From: an uncultured Clostridia bacterium
Lineage (GTDB): Bacteria; Bacillota; Clostridia; Christensenellales; UBA1242
Assembly: GCA_946610655.1 (NCBI GenBank)
Contig: CAMOCH010000004.1
Span: 1 to 34,961 of the forward strand
Direction of reading: 5' to 3'
DNA: 34,961 bases
The position numbers were made by a program, and so were the translations under genes. This document shows positions 3,240-34,394 of the stretch, in pieces. The notes beneath the pieces were generated by a model. The model was given only the letters and a program-made list of their open reading frames with translations. It was not told the DNA's origin and did not search any database. How positions within the stretch are numbered: the first letter of the stretch is position 1; the number at the start of each line of letters is the position of its first letter.

Positions 3240-3244
3240 AATAT

Positions 3245-3273: not shown

Positions 3274-3292
3274 TTAAAAAGGAGATAGACCT

Positions 3293-7918: not shown

Positions 7919-7952
7919 AAGCACTTTCTTCCAATTAAATTATATAAATTTT

Positions 7953-7987
7953 TATTCACTTTGGCAAGTTTTTTGCCAAAGTGAATA
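7953..7987 (-). terminator. 15-bp perfect hairpin downstream of the giant gene (terminator or processing/attenuator stem)
   Basis: TATTCACTTTGGCAA-GTTTT-TTGCCAAAGTGAATA. On the - strand it follows the giant gene's stop and lies before the 7918 start; the trailing sequence AAAATTTATATAATTT is not a strong U-tract. Confidence 0.55.
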
Positions 7988-8002
7988 GGGTATTATTGTT
8001 TA

Positions 8003-11000
8003 TTAGCTAGGGAAATCTGAGAAGTCTAGGCTGCTAACAAATTGTTGCAATGCACTTGCACGATTGTTATCGTTGTTAATTGCACTGTCAATAAGGCAAA
8101 CACCTTCATAAACTGCATAACCAATAGCCACAGCTCCAATAGCGGCAGTCGCAGCATGGATTGCGAAAGCTGCTTTTGCTCCAAGGGCAAGAGCTCCAAT
8201 AACAGCACTACCAGCACCCCAAGTTGCAACAGTAACAACAACAGAGGCGACAGCGATTGCACTAACAACAATAATATTTCTTACTATTGCAGGGTGTTCA
8301 GCATCAAGATTGGTTGTTTTAACTTTGTCCACATATAGTTTTAATGTTACACCAGCAGTAAATATTGTGTTATCTGTATCATAGAATTCTTCACTAACAG
8401 GGCAAATACCTGAGTGAGTTGTAAGCAAATATGTTCCAGCATATTTAGCACCACGATTTGTAATACCAGAAGCCCATTTTGAAAGTTTTGTCCATTTATT
8501 ACAATCAACAGTGTTCTTTATAAATGAATCTGAGTTTGCATAATCGTTATCATGATAGGTTGTTATTGTTTTACCATTAAGTTCACCATTTGTATATCCT
8601 TCAAATGTTGAAGTTGCGTTATCAATATAAACATATCCACGAATTTCATCTTCCCAAATTCCTCTATCACGGTGAGGGTAAACATGCTCAGTGAGTTTAA
8701 CAGTTGAAATAATTGCATCACCATAATTAAGGGCATTTCCAAAATATCTATAGTCAATTTGTTTATTTGTATCAACTTGAATTGTTGCTTTATAACCTTT
8801 TAGTCCAAACATCTTGTTATAATCATTTTCATACCCACCAAGATTGTTTTGTCCTTCTTCAAATGTTATTGAATTTTTAAAGTTTTCATAAACATTGATT
8901 CTATAGAAGGTTAAGTCGTCAGATTTTTCAAGACGTGTTGCCAAAGCATCAAGTTTTAATGTATATCTCAAAATGTTAGCAAAGTTTTCTTTTGTGCTTG
9001 ATGTGTAATCAAAGATTGTTCCTGATTGAGGCATTCCACTATAATATTTGTCAGTTCTTTCATTAATTTCACTTTGAACAGATGTATGATTAATACTTTT
9101 TGAATAAGTTCCAAAATTAATATTGTTTGTTGGGTTAAATGAAATTATTTCAGTCATAATGTAAACAAGTTGAGCTTGAATATTTGTAGATAATCTCATA
9201 GTTCTAAGAGCATTTTCAATTGCTTCAACATATGTCAAGGCATTTTTAATAACATATAAGTCGTAGCCATCAATTAAATCAACTTTGCCAGAAAGATAGT
9301 TAGGGTGGTCACATTCTGTTTTAACAGATTGATTAAAGTATTCTTTCATGGCATTAATATAAGCAGCATTTCCTTTGTTAGTATCAGCAGGAGATATAAA
9401 ATCAACAATTAATTGAGAATCTTCTGTTTTAGCAACATTAAGTTTTGCTGAAACATTTTGAGAAACTCTTTCAAAGCTCATAAGAGTGTAGAGATTCATT
9501 GATGGATATTTTTCAGTATCTCTAATCATTGTTTTGGTTGCCTCATCATAAATAAGTGAGTCACCATAGAATGTTCCAGAGAAGTTGTTTCCATTAACCT
9601 TACTACCATACATTGTGCTTGTTGATGCTCGGTCACAATGTGCAATGCAAGATGTGTAACCTATGCATTCTTTTTTGGTTTCATCATCAAAATTATAGTT
9701 TTCAATGTTAAATTCGATTGAGTATTTACTTGAATCGAAGTCGTCTGTAACAGTATGTTGATATGCAATTCCATATTCTGTTGCAACACCAGTAACAGCA
9801 GCAATTTCAAAATCAGGGAATCCAGAGTTTTCATTTGCATAAACATAAAATTCAAATTTGAGAGAGTCTTCAATAATGTCGGCCATTACCATAAATTTAA
9901 TGTTATTGATACTAGATTTAATAAATAATACATTATTATTTGTTGTAAGTTTAGAGAATGTTCCTTTCATGCTGCCAGAATTGATTGTTGTGCCATCAAT
10001 TGTAACGCTAAATAAATTGTCTTTAACTTTGATTGTTGTTTCATCAATTTCAAGATAGTCAAACACACTTGCAACTTTGTCGTAAACTTGATCAACCATG
10101 TCACAGTATTTAATAGTTGTGTTTGGAATTGAATCTTTAGTAACTTTATCGACATCTGGTTTACTTGTAAGTATTGGATAATCAGCACTTCCATCAGTTC
10201 TAGTAAGGAGAATAGGGTCGTTTTCATCATCTGGATTGATTTTTATCATGCTGCTAGTAACTTTAACAGGGTATGCCAAACGATTTCCATTACAATCAAT
10301 CCATGTGTAAATATATGGGTCTTTTTCATTTGTAACATATTTACCATCATATGATGGGTTTTTCCAACCTTCTGTTGCCATAACTGTTGCAGAGTATCCA
10401 ATATATGGTGTTTGAACTCCAACAGGAGTTTTTCCATCAACTGAATCTGGTTTTTTGCCGGTATATTCTGTTACTTCAGAATTAACGGTGTAGTAAATAT
10501 CAGCAAAGTATAAGTATATTGTAATATCATCATTTTTATTAATTTGTTGTTGAGTGTATGGGTCAGCAAAATATAAATATAAGTAGTTGATATTAGAAGG
10601 GTTAACTGACAATTTCAACTCAGAGTTTCTAATGCTGTAATCTTCAATGAACAATCTTTCAGGTCTTAAATAACCATATGTTATTGTTTTGTCATCTTCT
10701 TTTTTAATTTGAGAATCTAATAATGAAGTTGTGCCTTGTTCTTCGTTATAACTATTGCGATAAATATTTTCATAGTATGAATTTGCATTAGTAAAGTTGT
10801 CTGCTGCTTCAATTACTGTTGATTCAGAATAAATTGCAGCAATTGAAGAATTAGAATCTTTAACAGTTGCACCTTTATATTCAGCAAAGCCATTTGCAGA
10901 AATAAGAAGTTGAACATATACAGTGTCTGAGGTGTAAAGCAAAGATTCAACTTTAATCTTACCTTTGTTTGTTGATTCATCAGTTGATCTTCCACTGTTT

Positions 11001-14000
11001 GAAATTGTTGGAGTAGGGGTAAATTTTGCACTAACAGTGTTTTCAATTTTATCTTCATCAAATGTCATTTTTGAAAGGTTAAGAACATTAACTTTTGATT
11101 GATACAAAGCAATAATTATTGCATCACCATCAATGCTATCATAGCTTGCAGCATAATATGTTTTTTGAGTTCCGTCTTCACTTGTAACAGTTGCAACTTT
11201 TGATGAAGAAGCAGGAAGAATTCCAATGCTTGATTTGCCACCATAAAGTGCATATTTTAAAGTTTCATCATTAAATACATTTTGAACTGGAATTTCACTT
11301 GCGCAATGAATTTTATCGTTTTGAGAAATAATTACAAATCCATAGAACACTTTGTTATCAAGCTTTTCTGCAAGAAGAGTAACTTTCTTATATTTTTTAA
11401 CTTGCATTGTTGTGAGAAGGTCAGTTGTTTTTAAGTTTCCACCATGGTCTTCAACAACATATGCAATTCTTTCATCGCTAGGAATCCATCCATGGTTGAA
11501 GTCTGATTCTTCTTCGCCCAAGCATTCTGCAAGTTTTTGCAAAATAGTGCTATCATCATTTTCAAACAGTTTATCATTTGTCATGTATTTTTTAGCAGAA
11601 GATATTTCGGTTGAAATAACTTTGTTATTAACAAGACCAATTGCAACTTGATATCCTGGTTGAGTTAATGAAATTTTTGTGTTTGCAAAGTTTACATCGG
11701 TTGATACATTTGATTCTGAGAATCTAGAAATGATGCTGTTTGCAAGGGTATATTGAATTCTTGTATCTTTATAAACATAGTTAGCACCATTCATATTGAA
11801 GCCTGCAGGAAGAGTTCCACTCTTATACACAATAACAGTTTTTTGATGAATATTTTGAGTTGAATCATATGGGTTTTCATTAATTGGTTTTTCTTCATAT
11901 TCAAATGTGCATCCATCAATAGTAAGATATTTTTTACCATCAACAGTTTCATATTGATAATCTTCGTTATTATAAACATCATCAGTTGTTAAGTAATAGT
12001 CATAAAGTGAAATAGAGTGAATTTTATTATAGTCATCAAGTTTATATTCAAAGTTTTCTTTAATTACATAAGAAACATCAGTGCCTTTTTTTGCAGAGGT
12101 GATAACAAAATTTTCACCTGTGTAAATGTTTTTAACAACGCTATCTTTGTTTGTGTCATCAAAAATAAATTGTGTTGATTCATCAGCACCAATAACCAAA
12201 CTCAAGAAATATCTTTGGTCTTCAAAAATACCAATGTGGTCAGCAATAAAACTTGCGTTAGAGTTTGCAATAAATGTGTAGGTAGATTCTTGGTCAAGAA
12301 TATTGTTGTTTGAATATTCATTTAGTGAAGTGTAGTAGTTTTTCTCTTCGGTGATGATTTGTTGTTTCCAAGCTGTAACAGGGTTATCTATATCATATGT
12401 TGTTTGATAACCATTAGCATAGAATGTGGCTAATATATCAGATAACATTAAGTCTGGAGAAAGAGCCATTTTTCTGTATGAATATGTGGTTGGAACACTG
12501 CTATATTCATAAATTCCTGGGTTTTCAAAATTAATTGTTACAATGGTTCCTTCTTCAACAAGGAAGCTAAGTGCTGCATAGTTCATTTCATCTTTAGAAG
12601 TGAAATAGTTAGAGTGAGTGGTTTGACCATTTATAGAGATTGTAGCTGCGGTAAATTGAGAATTATATGTTGTTGCACGACCAGCTTCAATCAAATATAG
12701 GTTAGTGGTGTTAAGAGTGTATGTTGTTGAATTGACAATGTTTGCAAATTGCATTGCGTTTGCAACGCTATCATATTGAATCAATTCAATTTTGCCAAGA
12801 TTATCTTTAAATCCATTTAATTTATAATATCTTGTTGTGCTTATTGTTCCGTCTTTAGAAACAGCTCTAACAGCAGAATTTGAACCAATAAATGTTGTGT
12901 TTGCAACTTTTCCTGTTATTGTTTGATAAGATGCAGCAATAACTGTAAATTGTGGTGCATGATCTTTAGAATAAGCAATAGTAAGTTTATATGATTCTTC
13001 TTTTTCAATTCTTTGAGCAAATATTGCTTGGTCACCATCAATCAAATGTTCATTACCATCATTAATGGTTGCAGAAACAATATCACTACCATTTTTTGTA
13101 ACAATAGTAAACACTTCTCCAGCAACATCATATTCAATATTAATTTGAGTTACTTGTTCTTTCATTTTTGCAATAATTACAAAGTCAGAAATGTTGATTT
13201 CATCAATTGTCATTTCTAATTCATCAATTGCTGTTTTTGCAAGAGTGTTAATAACAAAGTTAGAATCAAGGAGAAGAGCAGCATTTTCAATTGTAAGCAA
13301 CTTGTTATCACCATAATAAATATACCATTCAACAAATCTGAAATATTCGTGAGTGTCAATCATAGTGATACTAATTGCATCATTAATTTTAAGAGCAACT
13401 GTGTTGACAGCCTCTTCAGTTTCAAAGTTTGTGTATGTTGTTTGGTTTTCAACAACATTAATATAGTTTATAGGTGTTTCAAGTGGATTACCTGGTTTGT
13501 AATACTCAATTTCAAGAGCAAAATTTATGCCGAGTTTTTCTGTAAATTGAGCAATCATCTCAATGTTATCACTGCATGTTGTTGTTCCGTCATTAACAAG
13601 AATACCAGTATCTTCGGCATCTTCTGTAACTTTAATATACTTACCACCATAAATATATCCATTAAATGCAAATTCTTCATTTTCAATTTCGTCTTTAAAT
13701 GCTGCATTTAATTTGTTAATAACAACATAGTTATCATTGTCGTCAATTGTGTAGAACCATTTGTCCAAAATATAAACTAATTTTGGGTTATCAACAGTAG
13801 TAGAGTTTTCAAATGAATTAGTGGTTGTGTTTTTCTCAAGTTTTTCATATTGAGCATAAGCATTAACGTTTGTAACATGTTCATATGTTGTTGAAATTTC
13901 AACATTGTGTTTAAGTGCCCAAGTTGAATTGATTTTTGTAACATAAGCATAATTATTCACATCTGCAGTATCAGTAAACTCAAATGTAAGAGTTGCAGTG

Positions 14001-17000
14001 AAATATGTTTTGCTGTTATATGAATACTCAATAATAATTTCTTGTTCTTGAGCTTTTATTTCAATAAACCAATTGTCTTCAGAAGCAGGGTTAAATATTG
14101 TTTCTTTTTGCATAGCATAGTTATATGCATCAGCAAGAGAAACACAATCAATTCCATTATATAATTTAAGCAAGTCAGACAAATTCTTAGAAACAGTGTT
14201 ATCTCCAATTTTCATGCTAAAAGTAATGTCTTCAACAGAGTAGTTATCTTTTGCAGAAATTGTTGCAGTGTATTGTTGATCAGCAAATCTTGTTTCTGCA
14301 ATACCAGCATTGTTGTCGTTATCACTAACAGAAAGGGCAAATTTGTTAACAATTGTAATCACTGCAAGAAGTGTAGCAGAACTATCATCATTGGTTGTGA
14401 TGTATGTTAAGTTGTTTGATTTTTCTGTTTTGATAGTGGTTGTAATTTCATCACCATCTGTGTTGGTTGTGATTCTAGTTAACACAACGTTAAGCAAGCT
14501 TTCACTTATGCAGTTATTTGTGTTGATAGCAATTGTAATGTTGCTGCTAAGTGCAAGTTTTGCAATTTCAGCATCAGAGAACACAAGTTTATATTTAACT
14601 GCAATAGACTCGGTTAATTCATCTAATATTTTAACAAGAGTAATTTCTTTTTGTGTTCCATCAGAAGAAACAAATATTGCTTTTTCAGCTTTTGTTATTG
14701 TGATTGTGTCAATCAGACCATTTTGTCTAACAATTGTTATAACAATTTCGGCATTGGTTGATGCAACATCAGGAGCAACCAACTCAATTACAAAGTCTGT
14801 TTGTTGGTTGTTGTTGGTGATATCTGTTTCATCAATTTCAAAATCTTCTTCAACAATCTCAATGTCGTCATTAGTATTATCCATTAATGTTACAACATTG
14901 TCAAAGCACAAACTTGCTTTGGCAAAACTTGAAACAGCAAAGCCTGCTGTGCCACGGTCAAGAGTGGCAGCAGTAGTGTTAGTAGAAGGAGCTGCAATTT
15001 GTTGTGTTGCAGAAGCAGTAATTGTTGATAAAATGTTTTCTGATTGATAAATTGTGAATTTATATTTTGTTTTTGTTGTTTTAAATTCATTTGTGTATAG
15101 GTATGTATCAGTGTCTGTTTCATCATCATGAACTGTTGTTCTTGTTTCAAATGTTTGAGCAACATATTTGTCGTCATATGCATTTGAGTCTGGATTAAAT
15201 GATGCATTTTCAGCAGAATTATAGTATCCAAACACAACTTTAGTTCTATACATAAATTGAGAACCATAAAGTGTTTTAACAATCATAAATCCATTATCAT
15301 CAAGAGTAGATGACAAAATTTGAAGAGTGTTTGAAGGTTCTTTTGAAGTTGTTCCACCAAGCACATTATAGTTAACAAAGCTGTTATAGTTTTGACTAAT
15401 GTTTGTAAAGTCAACAGTGTTAGCGTTATTTATAGAAATTTTAATTGTTGAAATTTCAACAAATTCAGCCATCATGTTGATAGCATTTACCATTTGTTCT
15501 GGCATTACTGCATCAGTGTAGTCAAGACCAAGTGTGTTTGTAACAAACATATAGCGTTTTGTGTTTGCAAGTTTAATTTCTTGATACCAACCAGTGAACA
15601 AATAGTCTGCTTCATAAATATTTTCACCATTTTTGTATGTGATATGTAGAACAAGATTATTTGTATTTGCAAGAGTGGTGAATGTGAATTTATATGAGTT
15701 ATATTCAACAACTCCATTAGTTGCATTACCAGCAGCAATTGTGTTAAAGAATGCTGTTAATGCTTTTGCAATGTCACTGTTTTCAATATCACTTGATTTT
15801 GTTGGGTCAAATGTTTTTGTTCCACCAAACGCATTACCAATGAAGCGATAAGCAAATTGAGTATCGGTTGTTTTTCCTGGGACATCAGTTCCTGGGAATT
15901 GTGCAACAATATCAATGCTTTCAGAAAGGGTGAATGAGCAGTTTGTTGTGTAGTTAATTGCAGTGTTACTTCCTGCAATAGATTGGTTTGTATACATAAA
16001 CCAACCATAATATTTAAGTTCACCAATTGTTGGTTTAACAGTTTTGTCATTGTTTGTTTTGTCATAAACAGTAACATTTACAATTGTTCCAATAGGCAAA
16101 TGAAGTTTGATGTACAAACTTTGATTATCTTTATTCCAATAAGAATTTGCGTCTTGTTCGCTATTTGTATAAGTTGTGGTTGTTGTAACACCATAAGTAT
16201 TGGTTGCAGAATTTAATACATATGGGTTATATGTTACAATTTCAATTTCAATATTATCAAGAGCTGAGTTTGCAATTTTGTCTATATCATTTGTGTTATC
16301 AACACCAATACGAACAACAAAGTCAACTTCTTTAACATATCTAAATTCTGCATAAATGTTATGAATATCATAAATGTTGTCATTTGTTGTTATAAAGTCA
16401 GACAAATCAACAACCAAATGTTCTTCGCCATTAACGATATATTTTCCAACAATGTTATAAAGTTTGCCATTTAAATATATACCAATAAATTTGTAGTTAT
16501 CTTTTGTTGGTTGTTTAAGGGCAATATAATTAGATAATTGTGGATAGTAATAGTCATAGTTTATGGTTGAGTATGATTTATCTGTATTTTCATAATTAAC
16601 AGCAATATCGTCAGCATCAAGAGCAACAAAGGTAGTGCCAACTTTCTTAACTTGAGTGAGATAAGTTAATGTTTCATCAAACATAAGAAGAGGAGTGCCG
16701 TTTAATTCAATATATTTTTCTTTTCCTTCTTCACTTATTTCAAACTTAGAGTTTTCATCATTAAAGATTGTAACACCTTGAGAAACTTTATATGAAGTTA
16801 AGTATTTTGCAACAATAACATAGTTAGAAGCTTTTGTTATATCTTCTGCAGGGATAAAGCTTGTTAATGTGTTTGCAAAAACAACCTCGCCATTTTCATC
16901 AATTGCTTCAAGTTTTTCAAATTTATCAATAGAGTCTCCATCTTTTCCAAAATAGAATCCAACAAAATGATATCCAGCATATGTTGAAGCAATAAGTCCC

Positions 17001-20000: not shown

Positions 20001-23000
20001 TCAATTGCTTCAATATCAACATCATCACTAGCAGCCACATATCCAATGTAAAGTTTTCCAGAAAGTTCTTTGTCAAAGTAGCCACTAATATTCAATGATT
20101 TATTGTTTGCGTCATAAACAACATGAATGTTTCTGTTTGCACTATCAAGTCTGTTTTCTTCTGTTGCAATGTTGTTAACCATTCCATCAACATATTGAGT
20201 TTTAACAACAACAATAGGGTCATCTTCAGTTTCTTTAAACAATATCATTTCGGCACCAGAAAGACCAGTGTCTGAGGTTAATTGGTCACTGAAAGTGTAG
20301 CCATTTATTGTTAAGTAAACAGCAACGATTTCTTTTTCTACAACATTGATTGATGTGTTATTTTCATTAATAAGTTTTCCTGCATAAATTGTTGCATTAA
20401 TTGTTTTTGCAAGGTTGAATCTGTTAGAGAATGTTTCTCCACCAGTTTGCTCAAAAATAACACCATCATCTTCAACACCATCTTGAGTGATGATGAAATC
20501 GTTAAGAATGCTATTTCCACCAACTTTTAATCCTTCATTATCAAATCTGTAGCTACCACTTGGTGTTATTGTTGCAGTAACTTTTGAAGTTACGGTGAAC
20601 ACACCAGAAACGCTGGTGTCTGTTACTTCAATAGGGTTGTTTAAACTGTCATAAATTGTGTTGAAGTTAATAGTAAATGCATTTTTCTCATAAGAGAAAG
20701 TTATTTTTTCTGCTTTTTCAAATATTGCAATAATGTTTGTATCAGCATAAGCAGTTGTTTCAAATGGAGTCTCAATTTGAGTGCTCATAAGTTGCAAATC
20801 AGACCATTGTTTTTTGATGATTGTGTTATTATTTTCATCAGTGGTTGTTTTTTCTATTAATTTTTGTTCATACCAACCAGTGAAAATGTAAATTTCTTCA
20901 TTTTCAGAACCTGCGTTCAATGTGATAGAGAATATACCATTTTTATATTCAAACACATTTTTAATTCCATCGCTAGTAGTGATTTCCAATCTGTTAGAGT
21001 TGTCACTCAAAAGCATTTGAGTTTTGGTTACATTGCCATCAGAATCTGTTGTAGTTTTGCTGTAGCAAAGTCCACCAAGAGCCATAATTGTGTTTTGAGC
21101 AAGAGCAAAGTCATCGGCAAACATGTCGTCGATGTTAGTGTTTGTTGTATAATAACGATTATATGTGTTGCTTTGAATAGCTTTTGTTTCTTCAATTTTG
21201 TCTCCGGCACCAACATATGTATAGTTTCCTTCGTAACCACCACGAGTCCAAATTTGTTGAATAAAGTCAAGGCCTGCTTCTTTTAATTTGACTGCAGCAG
21301 TGTCAGGTTCTTCATAAGAAGAGTAATTAAAATCAACACCATCATATGAATCAATAACTTGAATGCTTGTTGAGTAGGTGTAGATAGGAATAGATGAAAG
21401 GTTAATAAAGTTTGTTGTTCCATTTTTAATTGGAGCAATACGGCTATCTGCTTTGAAATAATCAGAAATAACATTGAATATTTGAGTTTGTTTTGTTAAA
21501 TGAGCTTTTGTTGTGTCTGCTTTAGAAATAACATAAGCAACAGAAAGTTCAACATTATATTCCTTATCAATAAATTTGAAAAAATTATTTAAATTAGAAT
21601 ATTTAATAACGCCATTTTCGTCTTTTTCATAGAAGAGACTATAATCAATATTTCCTTCTTCATCTTTAAAATGTTTAAAGGCAGGGATTGTTTCAACAAG
21701 ATTTTCTAAGTATTCGATTCTTAATTCGATGTTTCTTCCATCAACATCGAATATTTTAATATTGTTTTCGTCATAGAATTCAAACATATTAGAGTAGGTA
21801 ACAGAATAATTTCCAGCAAGAACGTCACCAACAATAGATTTTTCTCTTGTTGGGTGAACTAAATATTCTGGGTTATAGTTGCTATAATCACTATCCATGA
21901 TAGATACAACAATATTGTTGACATTTTCATTTTTATAGTAGACACCATTAGTATAGTTGATTTGATCAACTTCTTCATGGTCAAAAGCCAAATCTCTGTC
22001 AAATGAAACTTTAAATACATAATAGAAGTATTCATCACGTTCATCTTCATTTAGTGTCATGTTTTGTTTAATATAGTTATCGCAAGGATACATAACAGGA
22101 ACAAGAACATGGCTTGTTATCATTCCAAGAGAGTGAATAGTAAGTTGTTTGTCATAATGAACTTTAACAACAATATACACATTTGTGTCAACATCAAAGA
22201 ACATGTTGTTAAGGTTTAAATCTTCTGGAGCAGCTTTTTCAACAGTATCAAGCCCAGAAGTTGTTATTCTTCTGTTAATTCTATAGTTGTTATATTCTAT
22301 TTGTCTTTGAAGGCTTCCAGCATCATCAGGATCAGTTTCTGTTTGGTCAACAGTAAAGTATGAACTAAAGTTGGCACCAACATTTGAATCAACATAGTAT
22401 TTGCCGTTTGTGCCACAAATAGCTGCATAATCTAGATATCTTGTTTCGGCAGATTCATCTGCAGTTAAAATAAAGTCATGAAGATCAATGCCTTCAACCA
22501 TATAGTCTGTTTGAAGGTTTCCATTTTTATCAGATCTTGCACCAATTCTTTTTGAAACAGAACCTTCTTCATTAGATTCAACAAAAGAGTTGTAGTAAAC
22601 AGAAACAACTTCAATGTTTTCAGGGTCTGGTTCTTCGGCAAAAATAAATGCACGATAAACTTCAATAAATTTAGCAACAATTCTCATGTCTGCGTGAAGA
22701 GTAGAAATGTACAATTTATTATCTTTAAATGTAAGGTTAGCACTTTCTTTTGAACGATAGAAATTATTACCATCTTTGTAAACTCTTTCGGTTCCAATAT
22801 AGTAATAATAATTATCTCCACTGGTTATTGTGGTTATTGCATCATAGTGAGCTTTTGTTTCATGTTCACCAGTATATTCTTCTGAATATGTGCGATCTTT
22901 GTAGTATTTTTGGCTTGAACCATATCTATATAATGGATACCAGAATCCACCTTCATTGTAGTATTCACCTCTAACTGCATCAAGAGCTGCGTCACTAACA

Positions 23001-26000
23001 ATAGCCTCATCTGTGTTTGTAACAGTGCCATCTTCAGTTATATGAATTGCTGAATAATAGTAACGTCCTGTGTCTTCAGAGTAGAAATCAGTAACATAAT
23101 ACCAAGTGCCATCAATAAGTTTAACTTCCTTAATAATGTCAGTATATGAATCATTAATACTATCATCAAGTTTAACATCAGAAGCTGTCCAAACGCCAGT
23201 TTCTTCATTATATTCAGCCAAATACCAACCTTCAAGACGATATCCAGAACTTGCATTTGCACTGATTACCATTTGTGTGTCACGGTCGAAGTATGATGTT
23301 TTGAATTGAAGAGAAGGGTAAACGATTTCTTCACCATCTTCATCAAAATATGAATACAATTCGCCAGCTGCAATGTTTGAAAGTTTGCTATACATATAGA
23401 TATCGTTGCCTTCACGATAAGCATAAACGTTACCAGTGTAAACAGCAACAGAGTTATAGTTAATAACTTTTATGTTCGCAAAATGATAAGCATTGGCATT
23501 ATCAGTGTTTTTCAATGCATAGTCAATGGTTTTAGAGCCGTTTTCCATTGTTTCAAGAATTCTTGCAAAATCCAATGGTGATGTTGCATAAAATTCTCCA
23601 GTTTCGCTGTTATAATAAACAACATAATTTTTTTCTTCTGGGTTAACTTTAGATTTATCATTAATATGTGTTACGCCAAATGCATAAGAAATATAGTCAA
23701 GAATATTTCCTGTGCTGTTTTCTTCATAACCAAAATTATTAAAGCTGCTGATAGATCTTGCTTTTCCATCAAGATAGAATCCATAAGAGCCATTTGATGC
23801 AGACAATACAATAAGTCCACGTGATTTATACGCACCATCATTCACATCTGAAATAACTTCAGTAAGAATATTCTCTTCGTTTATTTTTGTAAGAGATTTT
23901 CCATTATCACTAAGTATGTAAAATTCACCATTATAAACAATGATGTTAACCTTTTTAAAGTTAGGATATACTTCGTCTGAATAGTATTTATTGTTTCTAT
24001 AAACACCAGTATGGAAACCTTCAAAATAGAGCATAGGAACAATTTCCAAATCTTTAAAGAAGTATTTGGTTTCAGTTCCCTCGGTTGTTTTAAAGTAATC
24101 AACAAAGTAAGCAGGGTTGCCACTCTTATCAATTTGAGCATTGCCCTTGTTTTCAAAATTAGAAACATCATAGTTTATGGCATTTCCTGAATTTGCATTG
24201 TAAACAACGTTAACGGCACCACCCAAGTTATTTGGACCATCAACAACGCTTGTTGCAAGATTAAGAGTATAAACTCTTTCATAAACAGGCATAAAGATGA
24301 AGTATCCTGCTTCGTTAGATTTAAATCTAAGAACAGCATTATAAATATCATGGCTTTCACCAATTGCTGCCATATTTCTATATATAACTTCGCTGTTATA
24401 TCTGCTGAATATTTCCCAACGTTTAAATCTATAAATTACATTTTCGTTTTCGTTAATATTTATGCTAACAACAGGGCTAGTAACAAACACAACGCCTTCT
24501 TTTCCAGTGAGGAAATATGCATCGCTTGAGTTATAGCTGTTTTGAATGTTAATTGCATCTTCGAACCAGAATGATTGAAGTTTGCTGTCAAATTGTATAG
24601 TTTGAATAGCGTCAGCATTAATACGATAAGCATTTGTAACGCCACCGATCAAAACTTCATCATAATTATATGTGTTTGAACTATCTGAAAATCCACTAAT
24701 ATAAATGTTTTCAACACCTGTGCAGACAGAATTATCATTTTTCAAAGAGTCAGAATAAAGGTTAATAATTCCGTTATCTGCAATGTAATAAGTGTGAATA
24801 TCAAAATATGGAACATTTTCAAGAGATTCTGCACTTGAAGACCAAATGTTAAGTTCATTAGAGTTCAAAAGAAGATATTCGCCATTTTCTGCCAAATAGT
24901 ATAGAGGGGTTTTGTATCTTCCGTTTTCGTCCAAGTCAACAGTAGAATATAAGTTTGTACTGTTATCATTCATTCCAATATTTAAAACTGTGATGTAAGT
25001 GCCATCAAGGTATGGAACATAACCATCATGAGTTTTAGGTTGTCCATTTTCATCATAAACAATATCACCATTTTCATTAGTTTCGGTAATTTTAACTTTT
25101 GTGTATGCAACAATAGGTTGAAGAGTACTTGCCATTACAACATAATAAAGTTTATCCATCTTGCTTTCGTTAGTTAAGTTTGTGATGGTATCTTTAAATG
25201 TTATTGTTGAAAAATCATATATTAAATCAAGTTCAGCAGAAGCAATTGCGTTTGTTAAAAGTTCAACATAGTAACCGTTGACAATTTCAAGACCAAAATT
25301 AAGAACAGCTTGTTCTTCTGCTTTGTGTCTAACTTCAAAGCTAAATACCGGGTTGGTGTATGGAGCACCTGCAAGAAGACTAACACCAGGGAATGCAGAG
25401 ATAACTGATTTAACCGTTGTATAGTCTATGTCGTAGTAGTTATTAACATCGTCAATAATGTTTTCAGAATCGCCTTCATTATAGTAATCGAATGTAGGGT
25501 ATACGTCTGTTTCACCATTTCCAAGAAGAACAACTTTTCCAATAACATGAATGTCTTCACCAGTTGTAAGAGTTGCTTTTCTAACAATATTGTTTGTTGA
25601 ACCAGGCAAGGTTGCTGTTAATGTTTCAGCATAAAGTGTTATACTTCCATCGCTGCTTGTGTATGAGTAGTCTGTAGAAATATATTTATAGCTAACTCCA
25701 TACAAAATGTATGTTGGTTCGTTAACATCGTCAGAAACTGTTTCTGCATCAATTAAGCCAACGTAAAGTTTTTCTCCAAGGGTTGCTTTATCAACATAAG
25801 AACTTGTTGAAGATGAGCTTTCAACAATGGTTTTATAATATTCCCTTTGAACATAAATAGAGTAACCAGAATTTGTGGTGTTAAATGTTTTTGTACTGTT
25901 ATCAACAAGAGTAACTGTAACTGTTTGTCCGTCATCACCTTGAAGGTTTATTATTGGACTACCATCTTTCATTTCTATTGGGGAAATAAGAGGGTATCTG

Positions 26001-29000
26001 TCAATTGAACCATTGTCATTGGTAATATAAACATATTCATTTGATTGAGCATAATATTTGCCATCATTAGCCAAGTATAATGTAAATCCAAAAGTTCCAG
26101 GTTGGTTACTTTGGTCTTCTGTTTTAACAATATAAACATTATACAAAATGGTTAGTTCATCGTAAGTTTTTCTGTTATCAATATAGTAGTATTGTTTTTC
26201 ATCTTGTATAACAGAGCTAACATGAATATTTTCCAAAATTTTGTTATCTTTTTCTTGATTTTTGAATTCTGAGCTTAAATTTCCAACATATGAAGAAATT
26301 GTTGAACCTTTATAAGAATATAAAGACCAATATGCTTTTCCTGTGTTTGTTGAAAGGACATAAGTTTTGTCGTTAACAGAATATATTCCGTTGCTTATAA
26401 TTGATTCAAATGAATCAGTTGTTGGAGTTTCTTCAGAGCTAATAACTTGACCTTTATTGTTAGAAACAAGAACTGTTCCTTTAAGTCCATAGTTATGTCT
26501 ATCAATATTTTCAATAGGAACACCTTCTGTGTAAATTTTTTGAACATAGTGTTTTTCACTTTTGTTTGCATAATCAATAAATTCTATAACGCTATATTTT
26601 TTGCTTGTGTAGTTTTCTATTTCTTCATAGATATAGATGCCATCTTGTTCGTAATAGTGTGGTGTTGCATAGTTTGTATCTTCAACATAAACATCTTTTG
26701 TTGCAACATATGTTCCGTTTTCTGCATAGTAATAGTAGAAGCTGTTGTTAGCTCCTTGATTTCTATTAAATTTAACAAGTTTATCTAATTCGTAGAATGC
26801 CTCATCAATTTTAATGTAAGAACCTTCGTCATCTTGAACAAATTGTGAAGATTCCTCATCATAACTATATTTTGTAAAGCTGCTAATTGTTGCAAAGTTA
26901 GAAGTATTTTTTGTTTTTGCATCGTCTAAAACATAGTATTCAGTATTTTCACTTGCAGAGTTAACAGGGGTATAGTGTAAATCATCAACCTTAACAAAGT
27001 GTTGTTTTGTGGCGTTTGCATCTTCAACTACAGAGGTTGCAATGTAGTCACCATTTTCATCAAAAGTATAGATGTTTCCATCTTTTACATATTTGTTAAC
27101 ATAATAGTCACCATCAACAACATATTTGCCACCAATAAGAATATATTTACCATCGCCTTCTACGTAGTAAACAAATGAGTTGATGCTTGTTGTGTGAGTG
27201 TCTTTATCTGTGTTTACATATTGAGAAATCTCTGCTCTTACTGGAGCATTAAGTTGTTTAACAAGATAGTAGTAGTCTGCAATTATGTGACTAACACCAC
27301 CAATTGCATTAACAAAATTAGCAAAGTCAGCATCGGTTGCATGTTGAATAATAAGGCTACCAAGTGCAATAATATATCTGTGGTCATAAGAGTAAGAGTT
27401 TTGTTTTGCAGTTTGTTTGAATTCATCATTAAACCAGTTTACTTCAGTTGAAGAGACTAATTTTCCAACTGGTTTTGTGTAATAGTATTCAACAATTGGG
27501 TTTCCAATATTATCAAAATATGAGTAAGAGTTAACATCATAATAGATGTAGATTGGAACATTTGGTTCTTCATCTGTATTTGGTTGATTTGCTTCATATT
27601 GCAATCCGGTTTCTTGATTATAATATAATCCTGTTGCATAAACGTCTGCAACAACGTCAATTGCAGTATTTCTGTAGTTGTCAGGAGAATAAACGAATGT
27701 TCCTTCTTCATCTTTGTCATCATATTTAGCTTTATTTTCGTAGTAGGTTAAACTGTAATTAACTTGTACAACTTCTGAATTAGGAACATCTTCAGAATTT
27801 TGAGACAAGAACACAAATGATTCTGTTTCGCCAATTTCTTTCAAATCAGCTTCTTGATAAATGATATTATCAATTTTTGTGTAAGAGTAAAGAATGAATT
27901 TGTCGTCTTGACTAGAAGAAGATTCTTGACGCAAAATTGTTGCTTTTAAGCTTTCAGTATCATCAGCAGAAAGTAGAGTGTAGTAGTATAGATAAGTATC
28001 GTTTCCACCTTGAACAGCTTGATAATCACGGCGAGAAAATTCATATGGTTGATCATCATAATAAAGAGTGCTTTTTGCGGTATTAAGAACTGCGCCAGAA
28101 ATTTCTTCAACAGTTGTGTAGTAATATGTTTTAATAACAGTTCTGTTGATTTCATCATAAGTAATTTTGCAAGTGATGAAATCGGTTTTGTTTGAATTAC
28201 TATTTTCGTAAACAATTTCGCCAATGTTGGTTACAGACTCAACGTTGTATGATTTTAATGTGTAGTTGCTAGGAAGAAGCAAAGATATGATTACTTTTGA
28301 TGTTGTGTAACCATATTTATCTGTTTCTTCTGTTGTTGTACTTATAACTTGATAGCGAACAGAATCGTTGGTAACAGGGTCAACGATTTTTTCATCTTCC
28401 ATGCTAACAGCTTTGTTTCCTTTGATAACAAAAAGGTTTACAGCAACTTCTGTATTTGTTTCATATTTTGTCCCATAAATTGCATTACCAATTCTGTCGG
28501 CATAAAGTGTTTCGTTTTTAAGTTGATTAAGAACATAAATTGAGTTTGAATCATCAACAAGTTTTGTCATGTATTCAGAGAAGAAAGTGTAGTAGTTATG
28601 GTCATGTTCATTTTCATCAATTATTGATTCTTTGGCAAAAGAAATATATGTATCATATGCAAGTCCATTAATTTCAAAATGTCCATTTTCATAAACAACA
28701 AACATTCTTTCAATTCCCATACTTGCAATATGAGCGTCATAATCATATACGTCATCAGTTGCAAGCTCTTGGATTGTGTTTGGTTGTGTGCTAAACACTG
28801 CAGCAAAAGGTTTAGAAGCGCCGTTCTTCCAAATATAAATATCAACACCATCGAGGATTGTTGAAGTTGTTGCAATAAGGTCTTCAGCATCATAAATGTT
28901 GCCGTTCAAATTAAAGTTTTTAACTTTGCTAACATTTGCATAGAAAGTTTTCAAGTTGTTGCCAGAGTATGAAGCAACAGATAAAGTGCCAATGTAATAG

Positions 29001-30391
29001 TTATTGTTTCTAACAATTGATTCTTTGTATGATTTAGTGTTATTAGTTGTATTTAAATTTGTGGCTGAACCAATTTCAACTTCTCTTGCACCAAGAGTTT
29101 CTTTTGCAAAACTTGTAAGACAACTTTTATTCATGAAATTGCTGTCATAAGCATATTTCTCATTATTAACTTCTGGTAAATATTCACTCAAAACATATGA
29201 ATTTTGAGCTTTAACAACGTTTGTCCATTTTTGAAGAGCATAGTCGCTGTTTATGTCCATTGATCTTTGAACATTAACAACTTTGCCTTCAACAAAATAT
29301 CCGGTGAGTTGTGTGTATTCATCGCCAGTAGAAGCTGCTGTTTCAGAAGCAAAATAGTATTTATTTTTGTCGTAGGTGAGAGCTTTGTATTTGTTTTCAC
29401 TTGAGTTAGAACAGTTTGCACTAAAGTTGAGTTGATAAACGTTAAATTTGGTTGGAGCAGTAAAAATTGAGTCTCCACGGTTTTCTGAACTAGAAAGTGA
29501 TGAAACTCTAATATATCTGCTTTGAGAACCTTTGGTTAAGATAGGGTTGTAAACAAGTCTAAATCTGCCATTTTCTGTAACATAAACTTTGGCAACATTA
29601 TAGTTTTCGGCAGTTTGTACAACTGTATCGATTTTATATTCTTTGGTATCGTTATCAAAAACGGTTTTTGTGTAAGAAATAGTAAATAAATCAGAAACAT
29701 CAACGCCTTCTTTTAGAGAGAAGAGCTGAGTTTTGTTTGTATAGTCAATGTAGAGATTTTCATATTGAGATCTGTTAAGTGTTAAAGTGATTCTTGTTGT
29801 TGTGTTGTCATAGTTGGAAATTTCGTAACTTGCAAATTTTGGAAGGTAGCGGCTATTTAAATTATTTAATGTTGTGCCATTTTCAACAATGCCACCACAA
29901 ATCTTTTTAAGAGTTGCGTATTCTATGCTGTAGTAAGCGGTGTCATCATCAGCTTTTGTCCAATAGCCTTTTGTTGCATCAAAAGTAAGTCCTTTAACAA
30001 CTGAAAATTCTGAATTTACAGAAACGTCTGCGTCTGAAGAAAAACTAACGGCATAGTTAGTGCTTGAGTCTGCAGTAATGTAAGCTATTTTCTCATTTTG
30101 TGGGGCATCGGCACTGTTTTCAAAACAGTCATCAAAATAATAAGACAAGTCCCACTCAAAAGAACCGGTAGATTCGTTCACAGAACCATCAGTTGGTATT
30201 TTGTTATAGTCAACAGAAACCATAGGTATTCTTTTTCTACCTTGAGCATCTACAGTCTCTGATGAGGTGTCAGCTTTATTTCCACCAAAGTCACCCCAAG
30301 AGCAGGCAACTAATCCAAATGAACAAATGAATGTAAATAAGGCTGCTAAGATAAATAAAATTTTTGTTTTTTTGTTACGTTTGTTTTCCAT
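8003..30391 (-). CDS. Giant (~7,462 aa) predicted surface lipoprotein with divergent InlB-type GW[YF] modules and Tyr-rich repeats
   Basis: Single uninterrupted ORF (track 8003..30406). Start revised to ATG 30391 because AAGGGA lies just upstream of it. Lipobox GLVAC. GWY/GWF/GFY modules such as IYIFTGWYEQ, YKFIGWFTI, FVGFYFGKDG, FAGFYVNGEFYDL, YLFTGWYQE, LEGWYLAEY. Confidence 0.85.
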   Translation of the reverse strand: MENKRNKKTKILFILAALFTFICSFGLVACSWGDFGGNKADTSSETVDAQGRKRIPMVSVDYNKIPTDGSVNESTGSFEWDLSYYFDDCFENSADAPQNEKIAYITADSSTNYAVSFSSDADVSVNSEFSVVKGLTFDATKGYWTKADDDTAYYSIEYATLKKICGGIVENGTTLNNLNSRYLPKFASYEISNYDNTTTRITLTLNRSQYENLYIDYTNKTQLFSLKEGVDVSDLFTISYTKTVFDNDTKEYKIDTVVQTAENYNVAKVYVTENGRFRLVYNPILTKGSQSRYIRVSSLSSSENRGDSIFTAPTKFNVYQLNFSANCSNSSENKYKALTYDKNKYYFASETAASTGDEYTQLTGYFVEGKVVNVQRSMDINSDYALQKWTNVVKAQNSYVLSEYLPEVNNEKYAYDSNFMNKSCLTSFAKETLGAREVEIGSATNLNTTNNTKSYKESIVRNNNYYIGTLSVASYSGNNLKTFYANVSKVKNFNLNGNIYDAEDLIATTSTILDGVDIYIWKNGASKPFAAVFSTQPNTIQELATDDVYDYDAHIASMGIERMFVVYENGHFEINGLAYDTYISFAKESIIDENEHDHNYYTFFSEYMTKLVDDSNSIYVLNQLKNETLYADRIGNAIYGTKYETNTEVAVNLFVIKGNKAVSMEDEKIVDPVTNDSVRYQVISTTTEETDKYGYTTSKVIISLLLPSNYTLKSYNVESVTNIGEIVYENSNSNKTDFITCKITYDEINRTVIKTYYYTTVEEISGAVLNTAKSTLYYDDQPYEFSRRDYQAVQGGNDTYLYYYTLLSADDTESLKATILRQESSSSQDDKFILYSYTKIDNIIYQEADLKEIGETESFVFLSQNSEDVPNSEVVQVNYSLTYYENKAKYDDKDEEGTFVYSPDNYRNTAIDVVADVYATGLYYNQETGLQYEANQPNTDEEPNVPIYIYYDVNSYSYFDNIGNPIVEYYYTKPVGKLVSSTEVNWFNDEFKQTAKQNSYSYDHRYIIALGSLIIQHATDADFANFVNAIGGVSHIIADYYYLVKQLNAPVRAEISQYVNTDKDTHTTSINSFVYYVEGDGKYILIGGKYVVDGDYYVNKYVKDGNIYTFDENGDYIATSVVEDANATKQHFVKVDDLHYTPVNSASENTEYYVLDDAKTKNTSNFATISSFTKYSYDEESSQFVQDDEGSYIKIDEAFYELDKLVKFNRNQGANNSFYYYYAENGTYVATKDVYVEDTNYATPHYYEQDGIYIYEEIENYTSKKYSVIEFIDYANKSEKHYVQKIYTEGVPIENIDRHNYGLKGTVLVSNNKGQVISSEETPTTDSFESIISNGIYSVNDKTYVLSTNTGKAYWSLYSYKGSTISSYVGNLSSEFKNQEKDNKILENIHVSSVIQDEKQYYYIDNRKTYDELTILYNVYIVKTEDQSNQPGTFGFTLYLANDGKYYAQSNEYVYITNDNGSIDRYPLISPIEMKDGSPIINLQGDDGQTVTVTLVDNSTKTFNTTNSGYSIYVQREYYKTIVESSSSTSSYVDKATLGEKLYVGLIDAETVSDDVNEPTYILYGVSYKYISTDYSYTSSDGSITLYAETLTATLPGSTNNIVRKATLTTGEDIHVIGKVVLLGNGETDVYPTFDYYNEGDSENIIDDVNNYYDIDYTTVKSVISAFPGVSLLAGAPYTNPVFSFEVRHKAEEQAVLNFGLEIVNGYYVELLTNAIASAELDLIYDFSTITFKDTITNLTNESKMDKLYYVVMASTLQPIVAYTKVKITETNENGDIVYDENGQPKTHDGYVPYLDGTYITVLNIGMNDNSTNLYSTVDLDENGRYKTPLYYLAENGEYLLLNSNELNIWSSSAESLENVPYFDIHTYYIADNGIINLYSDSLKNDNSVCTGVENIYISGFSDSSNTYNYDEVLIGGVTNAYRINADAIQTIQFDSKLQSFWFEDAINIQNSYNSSDAYFLTGKEGVVFVTSPVVSININENENVIYRFKRWEIFSRYNSEVIYRNMAAIGESHDIYNAVLRFKSNEAGYFIFMPVYERVYTLNLATSVVDGPNNLGGAVNVVYNANSGNAINYDVSNFENKGNAQIDKSGNPAYFVDYFKTTEGTETKYFFKDLEIVPMLYFEGFHTGVYRNNKYYSDEVYPNFKKVNIIVYNGEFYILSDNGKSLTKINEENILTEVISDVNDGAYKSRGLIVLSASNGSYGFYLDGKARSISSFNNFGYEENSTGNILDYISYAFGVTHINDKSKVNPEEKNYVVYYNSETGEFYATSPLDFARILETMENGSKTIDYALKNTDNANAYHFANIKVINYNSVAVYTGNVYAYREGNDIYMYSKLSNIAAGELYSYFDEDGEEIVYPSLQFKTSYFDRDTQMVISANASSGYRLEGWYLAEYNEETGVWTASDVKLDDSINDSYTDIIKEVKLIDGTWYYVTDFYSEDTGRYYYSAIHITEDGTVTNTDEAIVSDAALDAVRGEYYNEGGFWYPLYRYGSSQKYYKDRTYSEEYTGEHETKAHYDAITTITSGDNYYYYIGTERVYKDGNNFYRSKESANLTFKDNKLYISTLHADMRIVAKFIEVYRAFIFAEEPDPENIEVVSVYYNSFVESNEEGSVSKRIGARSDKNGNLQTDYMVEGIDLHDFILTADESAETRYLDYAAICGTNGKYYVDSNVGANFSSYFTVDQTETDPDDAGSLQRQIEYNNYRINRRITTSGLDTVEKAAPEDLNLNNMFFDVDTNVYIVVKVHYDKQLTIHSLGMITSHVLVPVMYPCDNYIKQNMTLNEDERDEYFYYVFKVSFDRDLAFDHEEVDQINYTNGVYYKNENVNNIVVSIMDSDYSNYNPEYLVHPTREKSIVGDVLAGNYSVTYSNMFEFYDENNIKIFDVDGRNIELRIEYLENLVETIPAFKHFKDEEGNIDYSLFYEKDENGVIKYSNLNNFFKFIDKEYNVELSVAYVISKADTTKAHLTKQTQIFNVISDYFKADSRIAPIKNGTTNFINLSSIPIYTYSTSIQVIDSYDGVDFNYSSYEEPDTAAVKLKEAGLDFIQQIWTRGGYEGNYTYVGAGDKIEETKAIQSNTYNRYYTTNTNIDDMFADDFALAQNTIMALGGLCYSKTTTDSDGNVTKTQMLLSDNSNRLEITTSDGIKNVFEYKNGIFSITLNAGSENEEIYIFTGWYEQKLIEKTTTDENNNTIIKKQWSDLQLMSTQIETPFETTAYADTNIIAIFEKAEKITFSYEKNAFTINFNTIYDSLNNPIEVTDTSVSGVFTVTSKVTATITPSGSYRFDNEGLKVGGNSILNDFIITQDGVEDDGVIFEQTGGETFSNRFNLAKTINATIYAGKLINENNTSINVVEKEIVAVYLTINGYTFSDQLTSDTGLSGAEMILFKETEDDPIVVVKTQYVDGMVNNIATEENRLDSANRNIHVVYDANNKSLNISGYFDKELSGKLYIGYVAASDDVDIEAIDINAWYINEYKEFTEQMDPRIKLYSLAGVNDLFRICFNYTMDNLELYDAESEDAIAVDADYVNLFNKNFSLGPNIVGYVASAVINRNSTLNVSYKTIESLDTIDELTNIAKDNGKEQSAIDYLSYGVINWTGKKVDYETETIMSETTVNGTHILVNDVYYEIATLTKYNYDGETYTVDSEGIYVEIGGEYYSLATQTKYVETTHTVEIVSNNGKAYFYGVEDNTFNFSSSTKIKLKTDLEYYEDGTNLYKFIGWFTIVGDKVYIVSNSLTADITGGGNYFAIYAKTVKLDETHVYTKENGEVVAALTDINGYISVDSNHKLETVPAKGEDGEIVKSYVSISNSANYNDHFVAVIGSKIITTVDVNEGYIIEDLTVSFKNDPDNIEETKINTNYKTTTFASEFTVIDKDFSIYSNIVKSATLSITKIYYNSISMISAGELCDYSVARLDDNRLPSGVSNIDNIPYKKGDVITLSFSNTDDYGLIGFYANGSLIGQLSEYTVETNNGAKTYSTTYTVEGDTTIEVRITHFAKVETKTQSINLSTGKIIDTNKQQVYISYIDHYTEEEINKQINLISPIETILSGTVVTFTTSSTKSTDAFVYYSKLVIEGGSTSEVIESTENTISRAIIYDATNQTANRASATYIANYVTAYEVTVTRSINGIDENDVISGINPQDIGVFTADELRSLLDVYVTYTNQYGEETTIVLGSKKSATISAQSKDSIVVTTKIDENVANRYGCYMIQNAKDSSSKKEVPTNGVVSFEDPSKGDIDVVYYPSRTITLSRKLDNQFSNNSSLTIAAKDDSQGTTFLLGNEQTSTFPKLNDSSITDPKLKIVTLADAIFVRISYLSAQYQFAGFYVNGEFYDLYDEEYVKLRDGDIYLYVVNNTQNKKAGNKNLTDDVNINITACWYTLSTIRTYIMLDGSYLNKETTTDIGENIVNTYGDATAIESDFLASKLTMRLYGNRLTGLTAGDANLEGAFNTALQLTLATNGKLEKYMSNTSLGLIASTYAGYHFVGFYFGKDGDSIDKFEKLEAIDENGEVVFANTLTSFIPAEDITKASNYVIVAKYLTSYKVSQGVTIFNDENSKFEISEEGKEKYIELNGTPLLMFDETLTYLTQVKKVGTTFVALDADDIAVNYENTDKSYSTINYDYYYPQLSNYIALKQPTKDNYKFIGIYLNGKLYNIVGKYIVNGEEHLVVDLSDFITTNDNIYDIHNIYAEFRYVKEVDFVVRIGVDNTNDIDKIANSALDNIEIEIVTYNPYVLNSATNTYGVTTTTTYTNSEQDANSYWNKDNQSLYIKLHLPIGTIVNVTVYDKTNNDKTVKPTIGELKYYGWFMYTNQSIAGSNTAINYTTNCSFTLSESIDIVAQFPGTDVPGKTTDTQFAYRFIGNAFGGTKTFDPTKSSDIENSDIAKALTAFFNTIAAGNATNGVVEYNSYKFTFTTLANTNNLVLHITYKNGENIYEADYLFTGWYQEIKLANTKRYMFVTNTLGLDYTDAVMPEQMVNAINMMAEFVEISTIKISINNANTVDFTNISQNYNSFVNYNVLGGTTSKEPSNTLQILSSTLDDNGFMIVKTLYGSQFMYRTKVVFGYYNSAENASFNPDSNAYDDKYVAQTFETRTTVHDDETDTDTYLYTNEFKTTKTKYKFTIYQSENILSTITASATQQIAAPSTNTTAATLDRGTAGFAVSSFAKASLCFDNVVTLMDNTNDDIEIVEEDFEIDETDITNNNQQTDFVIELVAPDVASTNAEIVITIVRQNGLIDTITITKAEKAIFVSSDGTQKEITLVKILDELTESIAVKYKLVFSDAEIAKLALSSNITIAINTNNCISESLLNVVLTRITTNTDGDEITTTIKTEKSNNLTYITTNDDSSATLLAVITIVNKFALSVSDNDNNAGIAETRFADQQYTATISAKDNYSVEDITFSMKIGDNTVSKNLSDLLKLYNGIDCVSLADAYNYAMQKETIFNPASEDNWFIEIKAQEQEIIIEYSYNSKTYFTATLTFEFTDTADVNNYAYVTKINSTWALKHNVEISTTYEHVTNVNAYAQYEKLEKNTTTNSFENSTTVDNPKLVYILDKWFYTIDDNDNYVVINKLNAAFKDEIENEEFAFNGYIYGGKYIKVTEDAEDTGILVNDGTTTCSDNIEMIAQFTEKLGINFALEIEYYKPGNPLETPINYINVVENQTTYTNFETEEAVNTVALKINDAISITMIDTHEYFRFVEWYIYYGDNKLLTIENAALLLDSNFVINTLAKTAIDELEMTIDEINISDFVIIAKMKEQVTQINIEYDVAGEVFTIVTKNGSDIVSATINDGNEHLIDGDQAIFAQRIEKEESYKLTIAYSKDHAPQFTVIAASYQTITGKVANTTFIGSNSAVRAVSKDGTISTTRYYKLNGFKDNLGKIELIQYDSVANAMQFANIVNSTTYTLNTTNLYLIEAGRATTYNSQFTAATISINGQTTHSNYFTSKDEMNYAALSFLVEEGTIVTINFENPGIYEYSSVPTTYSYRKMALSPDLMLSDILATFYANGYQTTYDIDNPVTAWKQQIITEEKNYYTSLNEYSNNNILDQESTYTFIANSNASFIADHIGIFEDQRYFLSLVIGADESTQFIFDDTNKDSVVKNIYTGENFVITSAKKGTDVSYVIKENFEYKLDDYNKIHSISLYDYYLTTDDVYNNEDYQYETVDGKKYLTIDGCTFEYEEKPINENPYDSTQNIHQKTVIVYKSGTLPAGFNMNGANYVYKDTRIQYTLANSIISRFSESNVSTDVNFANTKISLTQPGYQVAIGLVNNKVISTEISSAKKYMTNDKLFENDDSTILQKLAECLGEEESDFNHGWIPSDERIAYVVEDHGGNLKTTDLLTTMQVKKYKKVTLLAEKLDNKVFYGFVIISQNDKIHCASEIPVQNVFNDETLKYALYGGKSSIGILPASSSKVATVTSEDGTQKTYYAASYDSIDGDAIIIALYQSKVNVLNLSKMTFDEDKIENTVSAKFTPTPTISNSGRSTDESTNKGKIKVESLLYTSDTVYVQLLISANGFAEYKGATVKDSNSSIAAIYSESTVIEAADNFTNANSYYENIYRNSYNEEQGTTSLLDSQIKKEDDKTITYGYLRPERLFIEDYSIRNSELKLSVNPSNINYLYLYFADPYTQQQINKNDDITIYLYFADIYYTVNSEVTEYTGKKPDSVDGKTPVGVQTPYIGYSATVMATEGWKNPSYDGKYVTNEKDPYIYTWIDCNGNRLAYPVKVTSSMIKINPDDENDPILLTRTDGSADYPILTSKPDVDKVTKDSIPNTTIKYCDMVDQVYDKVASVFDYLEIDETTIKVKDNLFSVTIDGTTINSGSMKGTFSKLTTNNNVLFIKSSINNIKFMVMADIIEDSLKFEFYVYANENSGFPDFEIAAVTGVATEYGIAYQHTVTDDFDSSKYSIEFNIENYNFDDETKKECIGYTSCIAHCDRASTSTMYGSKVNGNNFSGTFYGDSLIYDEATKTMIRDTEKYPSMNLYTLMSFERVSQNVSAKLNVAKTEDSQLIVDFISPADTNKGNAAYINAMKEYFNQSVKTECDHPNYLSGKVDLIDGYDLYVIKNALTYVEAIENALRTMRLSTNIQAQLVYIMTEIISFNPTNNINFGTYSKSINHTSVQSEINERTDKYYSGMPQSGTIFDYTSSTKENFANILRYTLKLDALATRLEKSDDLTFYRINVYENFKNSITFEEGQNNLGGYENDYNKMFGLKGYKATIQVDTNKQIDYRYFGNALNYGDAIISTVKLTEHVYPHRDRGIWEDEIRGYVYIDNATSTFEGYTNGELNGKTITTYHDNDYANSDSFIKNTVDCNKWTKLSKWASGITNRGAKYAGTYLLTTHSGICPVSEEFYDTDNTIFTAGVTLKLYVDKVKTTNLDAEHPAIVRNIIVVSAIAVASVVVTVATWGAGSAVIGALALGAKAAFAIHAATAAIGAVAIGYAVYEGVCLIDSAINNDNNRASALQQFVSSLDFSDFPS
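8090..8275 (-). other. C-terminal 62-residue Ala/Gly/Val-rich hydrophobic segment of the giant protein (2-3 predicted TM helices)
   Basis: IIVVSAIAVASVVVTVATWGAGSAVIGALALGAKAAFAIHAATAAIGAVAIGYAVYEGVCLI, followed by a 28-residue polar tail; no LPXTG. Confidence 0.7.
30302..30391 (-). other. Lipoprotein signal peptide and lipobox of the giant protein
   Basis: MENKRNKKTKILFILAALFTFICSFGLVAC: basic n-region, hydrophobic h-region, LVAC lipobox; Cys codon at 30302-30304. Confidence 0.8.
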
Positions 30392-30425
30392 TAAAAATCC
30401 CTTCATTAAGTAGTTTGTTTTTTCT

Positions 30426-33976: not shown

Positions 33977-34106
33977 CAAAAACTGCAAAATTTACCATTA
34001 AATACTAAAAAATATATATAAAATACATTGATTTGATTAAATTTTTGCAAAAAAATAATTGTCACCAGCTTAATTCAAAATCAATATTTTTTGATATATT
34101 TTAGGT

Positions 34107-34394
34107 ATGGAAGAAAAACTAAAAGGGCAAATTAAAAAGATTTTAATTAAGCTTGCAAATGGTTATGAATACTCTGAAAAAGTTGAAGAGTATGTTGTTA
34201 AAAAAGACACCGAAGAGTTGGAACTTGCAAAGAAAAAAATCTCCACGCACTACATTCCACCAGACATGCTTGCAATAAAAATGCTTTTAGAATTTTCTGA
34301 CCAAAATTCAGAAGTTTTGTCTAATATGACAGATGATGAATTGATTGAACTTAAAAATAATTTAATTAAAGAATTAACAGGAGGTGATGATTAA
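34107..34394 (+). CDS. Small protein resembling the C-terminal tail of phage terminase small subunits
   Basis: ILIKLANGYEYSEKVEEYVV...KKKISTHYIPPDMLAIKMLLE resembles the TerS tail pattern (GYEYEE...kk...yiPPDttAqifwLk) without an N-terminal HTH. Confidence 0.5.
   Translation: MEEKLKGQIKKILIKLANGYEYSEKVEEYVVKKDTEELELAKKKISTHYIPPDMLAIKMLLEFSDQNSEVLSNMTDDELIELKNNLIKELTGGDD

Follow-up and report, generated by a model that had tools for sequence, protein, structure and literature searches.

A giant predicted surface lipoprotein encoded within a GTA-like locus of reduced-genome Christensenellales

What a bacterium with a reduced genome gains from a single gene of 22.4 kb, and what that gene does amid phage-derived neighbours, is the question raised by the window, the 34,961-nucleotide stretch of DNA analysed here. 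The window is the entire contig C4 of an 852-kb genome (82 contigs, 91% complete) from a family of reduced-genome Christensenellales, probably UBA1242. The giant gene takes up 2.6% of this genome, and a genome of about 0.85–1.0 Mb that spends such a share on one protein must gain from it. Its reading frame runs on the minus strand from an ATG at 30391 to a TAA at 8003 (positions 8003–30391) and encodes 7,462 residues, in agreement with the single ORF of about 7,460 residues given in a preliminary description that left the strand unnamed. The Shine–Dalgarno-preceded start described there is also present: the ribosome-binding stretch AAGGGA (within 30392–30406, minus strand) lies 7 nt before ATG 30391 and makes it, from sequence, a likelier start than the upstream ATG at 30406, which would give 7,467 residues. 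The plus-strand reading of the frame contains many stops and was rejected, and tRNA and Rfam scans of the window returned no matches. Codon use had been taken to indicate a real protein, and the frame behaves accordingly: the longest stop-free frame in 20 mononucleotide shuffles of the window was 147 codons, and the GC content by codon position is coding-like (41/34/21%).

Homologues were sought first with both ends of the giant as queries among 100 relatives. Within the same genus as the window genome, G002 carries a 7,491-residue ORF (a 7,495-codon frame) that is co-linear with the window giant, the two proteins being about 30% identical across an alignment of 6,757 positions. A second member of the genus, G001, has a giant of 7,034 residues split over two contigs whose ends overlap by 55 bp. 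Complete ORFs in independent MAGs, that of G002 included, encode 7,491, 9,979, 6,663, 6,603, 6,492, 6,694, 6,873 and 6,928 residues, giving, with the window, nine independent assemblies with complete giants of 6,492–9,979 residues. The 9,979-residue homologue belongs to another genus of the family (G059:C2:241883-271822). Identity among the giants is 21–44%, the values between genera being approximate and taken from a light full-length alignment, and even the nearest relatives share only about 36%; length and order are conserved. Nine complete ORFs with conserved length and order at this level of identity rule out misassembly and argue for selection, and the giant ORF is neither a chance opening nor an assembly product. 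Conserved length had been proposed beforehand as a mark of a functional giant and fragmented relatives as its refutation; nine assemblies, the window’s among them, carry complete ORFs, and one genome has an in-frame stop. Of the 310 genomes of the family, 17, spread over 6 of its 42 genera, contain the best-conserved region of the giant; when 396 genomes of the order Christensenellales were sampled, no other genome had it. One further giant-bearing genome, G339, was detected with the N-terminal profile.

The giant opens with a signal peptide and lipobox (residues 1–30; 30302–30391, minus strand), the lipobox LVAC occupying residues 27–30, with Cys30 as the putative lipidation site. The preliminary description had called this lipobox clear, and one is present in 14 of 14 homologous N termini checked. 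Residues 1–3,300 form the best-conserved part of the giants. The conserved N-terminal region (residues 21–800; 27992–30331, minus strand) is predicted to be all-β (pLDDT 67.8, pTM 0.65), and a Foldseek search with this 780-residue model gave Gram-positive pilins and pilus adhesins as its best matches, all weak, with TM-scores of about 0.1. The best-conserved core (residues 1590–2125; 24017–25624, minus strand) is family-specific, and its AlphaFold model is poor (pLDDT 46) and not usable for structure search. Profiles of the core and of the N-terminal region found no significant match in a sequence search of the PDB. Pfam and NCBIfam scans of the window giant placed no domain above its curated cut-off, which confirms the reported absence of an NRPS/PKS signature and leaves a giant protein family without a characterised domain.

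In all ten members with a known C terminus, the extreme end of the protein is hydrophobic and often rich in Ala and Gly; in the window giant this stretch is Ala/Gly-rich, comprises residues 7366–7435 (8087–8296, minus strand) and probably forms a hairpin. Between the two termini, hydrophobic segments are few and weak, and complete giants contain thousands of predicted-soluble residues. The C-terminal part varies gradually among members, with no swapped tips. An LPXTG-type sortase motif is absent from the window giant, and the other giants contain only scattered internal matches.

The repeated GW[YF] motifs pointed out earlier number five in the window giant, against 0.23 expected from its composition. 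A 111-position HMM, derived by iteration from the giants themselves, detects, at E < 0.01, six modules in the window giant and 4–9 in the other complete giants. Module 1, which is InlB-B-repeat-like, spans residues 2299–2418 (23138–23497; E = 3.5e-15 with the HMM from the giants); modules 2 to 5 span residues 3069–3204 (20780–21187), 3637–3737 (19181–19483), 4725–4824 (15920–16219) and 4864–4959 (15515–15802), and a degenerate module 6 spans residues 5638–5700 (13292–13480), all on the minus strand. Neither PF09479 nor PF18998 matches the window giant above its curated cut-off, and InlB-B-repeat matches in two homologues are sub-threshold (26.1 of 27 bits in G338 and 18.9 of 23.6 bits in G334). 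The modules are sparse, six in 7,462 residues, so most of the giant has no assigned fold.

Topoisomerase genes lie on the left flank of the giant, among them a type II topoisomerase A-subunit-like gene (gyrA/parC, named by eye; 798–3239, plus strand). They are followed by a polysaccharide deacetylase (4553–5317, plus strand), an SSB-like OB-fold protein (5330–5995, plus strand) and a 596-residue protein with a signal peptide and a C-terminal transmembrane segment (6134–7924, minus strand), for which an SH3_3 domain was found in 9 of 12 orthologues. The SSB-like protein can be aligned along almost all of its length with the phage family phrog_26861, its linkage to the GTA-like locus described below holds across families, and it may serve incoming single-stranded DNA; the window genome also has an SSB-like ORF of the usual size on contig C6. 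A terminator- or attenuator-like stem-loop (7950–7990, minus strand) lies in the gap between the giant and the 596-residue protein’s gene. An operon of these two genes is only partly supported: G002, G338 and G042 have a gap of 11–17 bp, but that of the window, G001, G024 and G059 is 67–80 bp long and contains a hairpin. Beyond the start of the giant, and divergent from it, is a phage-type sigma/HTH regulator (30778–31377, plus strand), followed by a 310-residue protein with a signal peptide, an SH3 domain and a transmembrane segment (31372–32304, minus strand). The SH3 domains of both flanking transmembrane proteins are supported through orthologues. Short acidic tails (..DDDDLL, as in the 310-residue protein, or ..EDDLL) are common on this terminase-adjacent SH3-TM protein and its orthologues.

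The right-hand part of the window contains a large terminase (32546–33976, plus strand) with intact Walker A (GGNRTGKT) and Walker B (VWFDE) motifs, a small conserved ORF (34107–34394, plus strand) in the gap between terminase and portal, and the N-terminal part of a portal protein (34555–34959, plus strand) that is cut by the contig end. This part of the locus covers 32546–34961 of the window and continues at G000:C1:30175-41649 in the same genome. After the terminase come, in G002 and on contig C1 of the window genome, matches to portal, scaffold, capsid and internal virion proteins and to tail and holin proteins, so that a tailed phage’s genes for head, packaging and tail are all represented. 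No replication or integration genes were seen on inspection of 378–455 kb of G002 and the matching regions, and housekeeping genes lie beside the locus. Of the 310 family genomes, 294, covering all 42 genera, carry the capsid gene, mostly as a single copy. A wider sample from the order has it in 176 of 297 genomes, and in the capsid tree the family is separate from other families. Capsids of four genomes from three genera are 74–75% identical, the terminases of five relatives are 61–80% identical to that of the window, and known phages match the capsid at 30% identity or less. In gene content and distribution the locus fits a domesticated, vertically inherited, podovirus-derived, GTA-like element, apparently an ancient one of the Christensenellales. 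GTA-like DNA packaging has been reported in Christensenellaceae, and a podovirus-like GTA (FpGTA) has been described in Faecalibacterium (PMC12946183). This conserved phage-derived setting was missed in the preliminary description. With its capsid gene found across much of the Christensenellales, the locus may represent a means of DNA transfer in the animal gut that has been widely overlooked. Two tandem or near-tandem capsid copies are present at G003:C2:8035-10367 and in several genomes of the genera g2, g4 and g17.

The giant occupies a fixed position in this locus. It lies between the SH3-TM gene on its left and the regulator in every assembly that covers the junction; the locus is also kept where the giant is missing, and there this SH3-TM gene directly adjoins the regulator. 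The left flank is rearranged in g23 and g34. Genomes with the giant group together in the capsid tree, in one supported clade of which a single member, G025, has no detected giant; a single gain is the simplest account.

The giant is probably a real, selected surface lipoprotein of about 830 kDa that acts as an adhesive fibre or tether and was gained once inside the GTA-like locus. It would be exported by means of its signal peptide, be lipidated at Cys30 and display thousands of β-rich residues, including the InlB-B-repeat-like modules, as a long, flexible fibre, and its C-terminal hydrophobic stretch may be able to insert into a membrane. With such a protein the cell could have a long-reach adhesive tether for capturing something at its surface. 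Its gene would have entered an ancestral podovirus-derived GTA-like locus on a single occasion, at the point where the gene of a membrane SH3 protein meets that of the regulator. The all-β N-terminal model, whose best, weak matches are pilins and pilus adhesins, speaks for a fibre, as do the InlB-like modules. Against a fibre stand the missing curated domain match, the TM-scores of about 0.1, the core pLDDT of 46 and the sparseness of the GW[YF] modules, together with the lack of a sortase-type anchor and a hydrophobic C terminus that is unusual for an adhesin. Of the earlier proposal of a ‘giant surface or forespore/cell-envelope protein’, the lipobox in all 14 N termini, the conserved length and the co-linear homology uphold an exported, membrane-anchored envelope protein under selection; for the forespore part nothing specific was found.

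A place in the forespore or spore envelope is very improbable. Each of the ten genomes tested has genes for both Spo0A and SpoIVA, and sporulation genes in UBA1242 have been reported as unexpected (PMC12306168), but the giant has no spore-protein domain, no evidence of its control by sporulation was found, and it occurs in only 6 of the 42 genera while sporulation genes are also present in the giant-less G011, G049 and G039. The hydrophobic stretch that follows a long extracellular region in every member with a known C terminus might instead insert into the membrane of a target cell, as in a factor for contact-dependent killing or lysis; this is very improbable, since neither a toxin domain nor an immunity-like neighbour was recognised, conservation falls on the N-terminal half, and the C-terminal part shows gradual variation rather than swapped tips. 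That the giant is an assembly artefact or a decaying pseudogene can hardly be maintained. In G257 the otherwise continuous frame of the homologue is interrupted once, by an in-frame stop near codon 3,501 (L171:11390-11392), but this is a low-quality MAG with 7% contamination, and the nine complete ORFs come from independent assemblies and match in length and order. The window genome, of about 0.85–1 Mb, has retained these sporulation genes despite its reduction, SpoIVA lying at G000:C37:1068-1781 and Spo0A at G000:C45:736-1044.

For an adhesive fibre encoded at this position, GTA particles or sibling cells are candidate targets. It is possible, if doubtful, that the giant is a GTA accessory: as a fibre on the cell surface it would capture GTA particles or keep sibling cells together for the reception of packaged DNA, while the SH3 proteins, the deacetylase and the SSB-like protein would take part in wall passage and in the handling of single-stranded DNA around ComEC uptake. 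The giant lies exactly between two locus genes that are adjacent in relatives without it, and the linkage persists in every junction-covering assembly despite the rearranged left flank of g23 and g34, but a single insertion event would make the shared position partly a matter of inertia. None of the reduced genomes tested has lost ComEC or DprA, yet both are common in bacteria at large. The reported DNA packaging in Christensenellaceae (PMC12946183) is in keeping with an accessory role, as is the use of comEC in GTA uptake and the co-regulation of the Rhodobacter capsule receptor with the GTA (PMC6209664). On the other side, most of the 294 capsid-bearing family genomes have no detectable giant, so the locus can do without it; the giant is encoded on the strand opposite to the packaging genes and evolves much faster (about 30% identity, against about 75% for the capsid and 61–80% for the terminase); and no shared promoter motif was found, the sequences upstream of the terminases yielding only low-complexity signals and a probable start-codon context. 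It is more doubtful still that a GTA lineage acquired a dedicated surface lipoprotein of 6,500–10,000 residues as a reception or retention fibre; if true, the giant would rank with the largest receptors known for particles of viral origin. The fixed place of the giant in a locus nearly universal in the family makes it testable how Gram-positive gut recipients catch GTA particles.

Giant surface proteins are already known as a kind: Giant1–5 of Apilactobacillus kunkeei are extracellular proteins of 3,000–8,000 residues that account for about 6% of the genome (PMC12863079). They share with the window giant a Gram-positive host, a small genome and a giant extracellular protein, predicted to be so here. 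They differ in being encoded by five consecutive genes and in the N-terminal β-solenoid of Giant1–4, whereas here a lipoprotein with a hydrophobic C terminus lies in a GTA-like locus, and its N-terminal model, of moderate confidence (pLDDT 67.8), is all-β with weak pilin matches and no β-solenoid seen. The FpGTA of Faecalibacterium prausnitzii, present in all Faecalibacterium genomes examined (PMC12946183), is like the locus in gene content, with podovirus-like terminase, portal, scaffold and capsid and no replication genes; unlike FpGTA, the Christensenellales locus is accompanied by SH3, deacetylase and SSB-like neighbours of its own and, within a single clade, by the giant lipoprotein. The literature searched, which included few subscription journals, contained no lipidated giant with a hydrophobic C terminus that is encoded inside a GTA-like locus. 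InlB-B-repeat proteins (Flg_new, PF09479; Flg_new_2, PF18998) resemble the giant in its spaced GW[YF] modules and in the sub-threshold matches of two homologues, and differ from it in that the window giant has no Pfam match and its main conserved regions are family-specific. The window genome also encodes further ORFs of 2,134–3,663+ residues with InlB-B-repeats (G000 contigs C6, C16, C17 and C24); these large ORFs pass PF09479, and together with the giant they make up more than 6% of the 852-kb genome.
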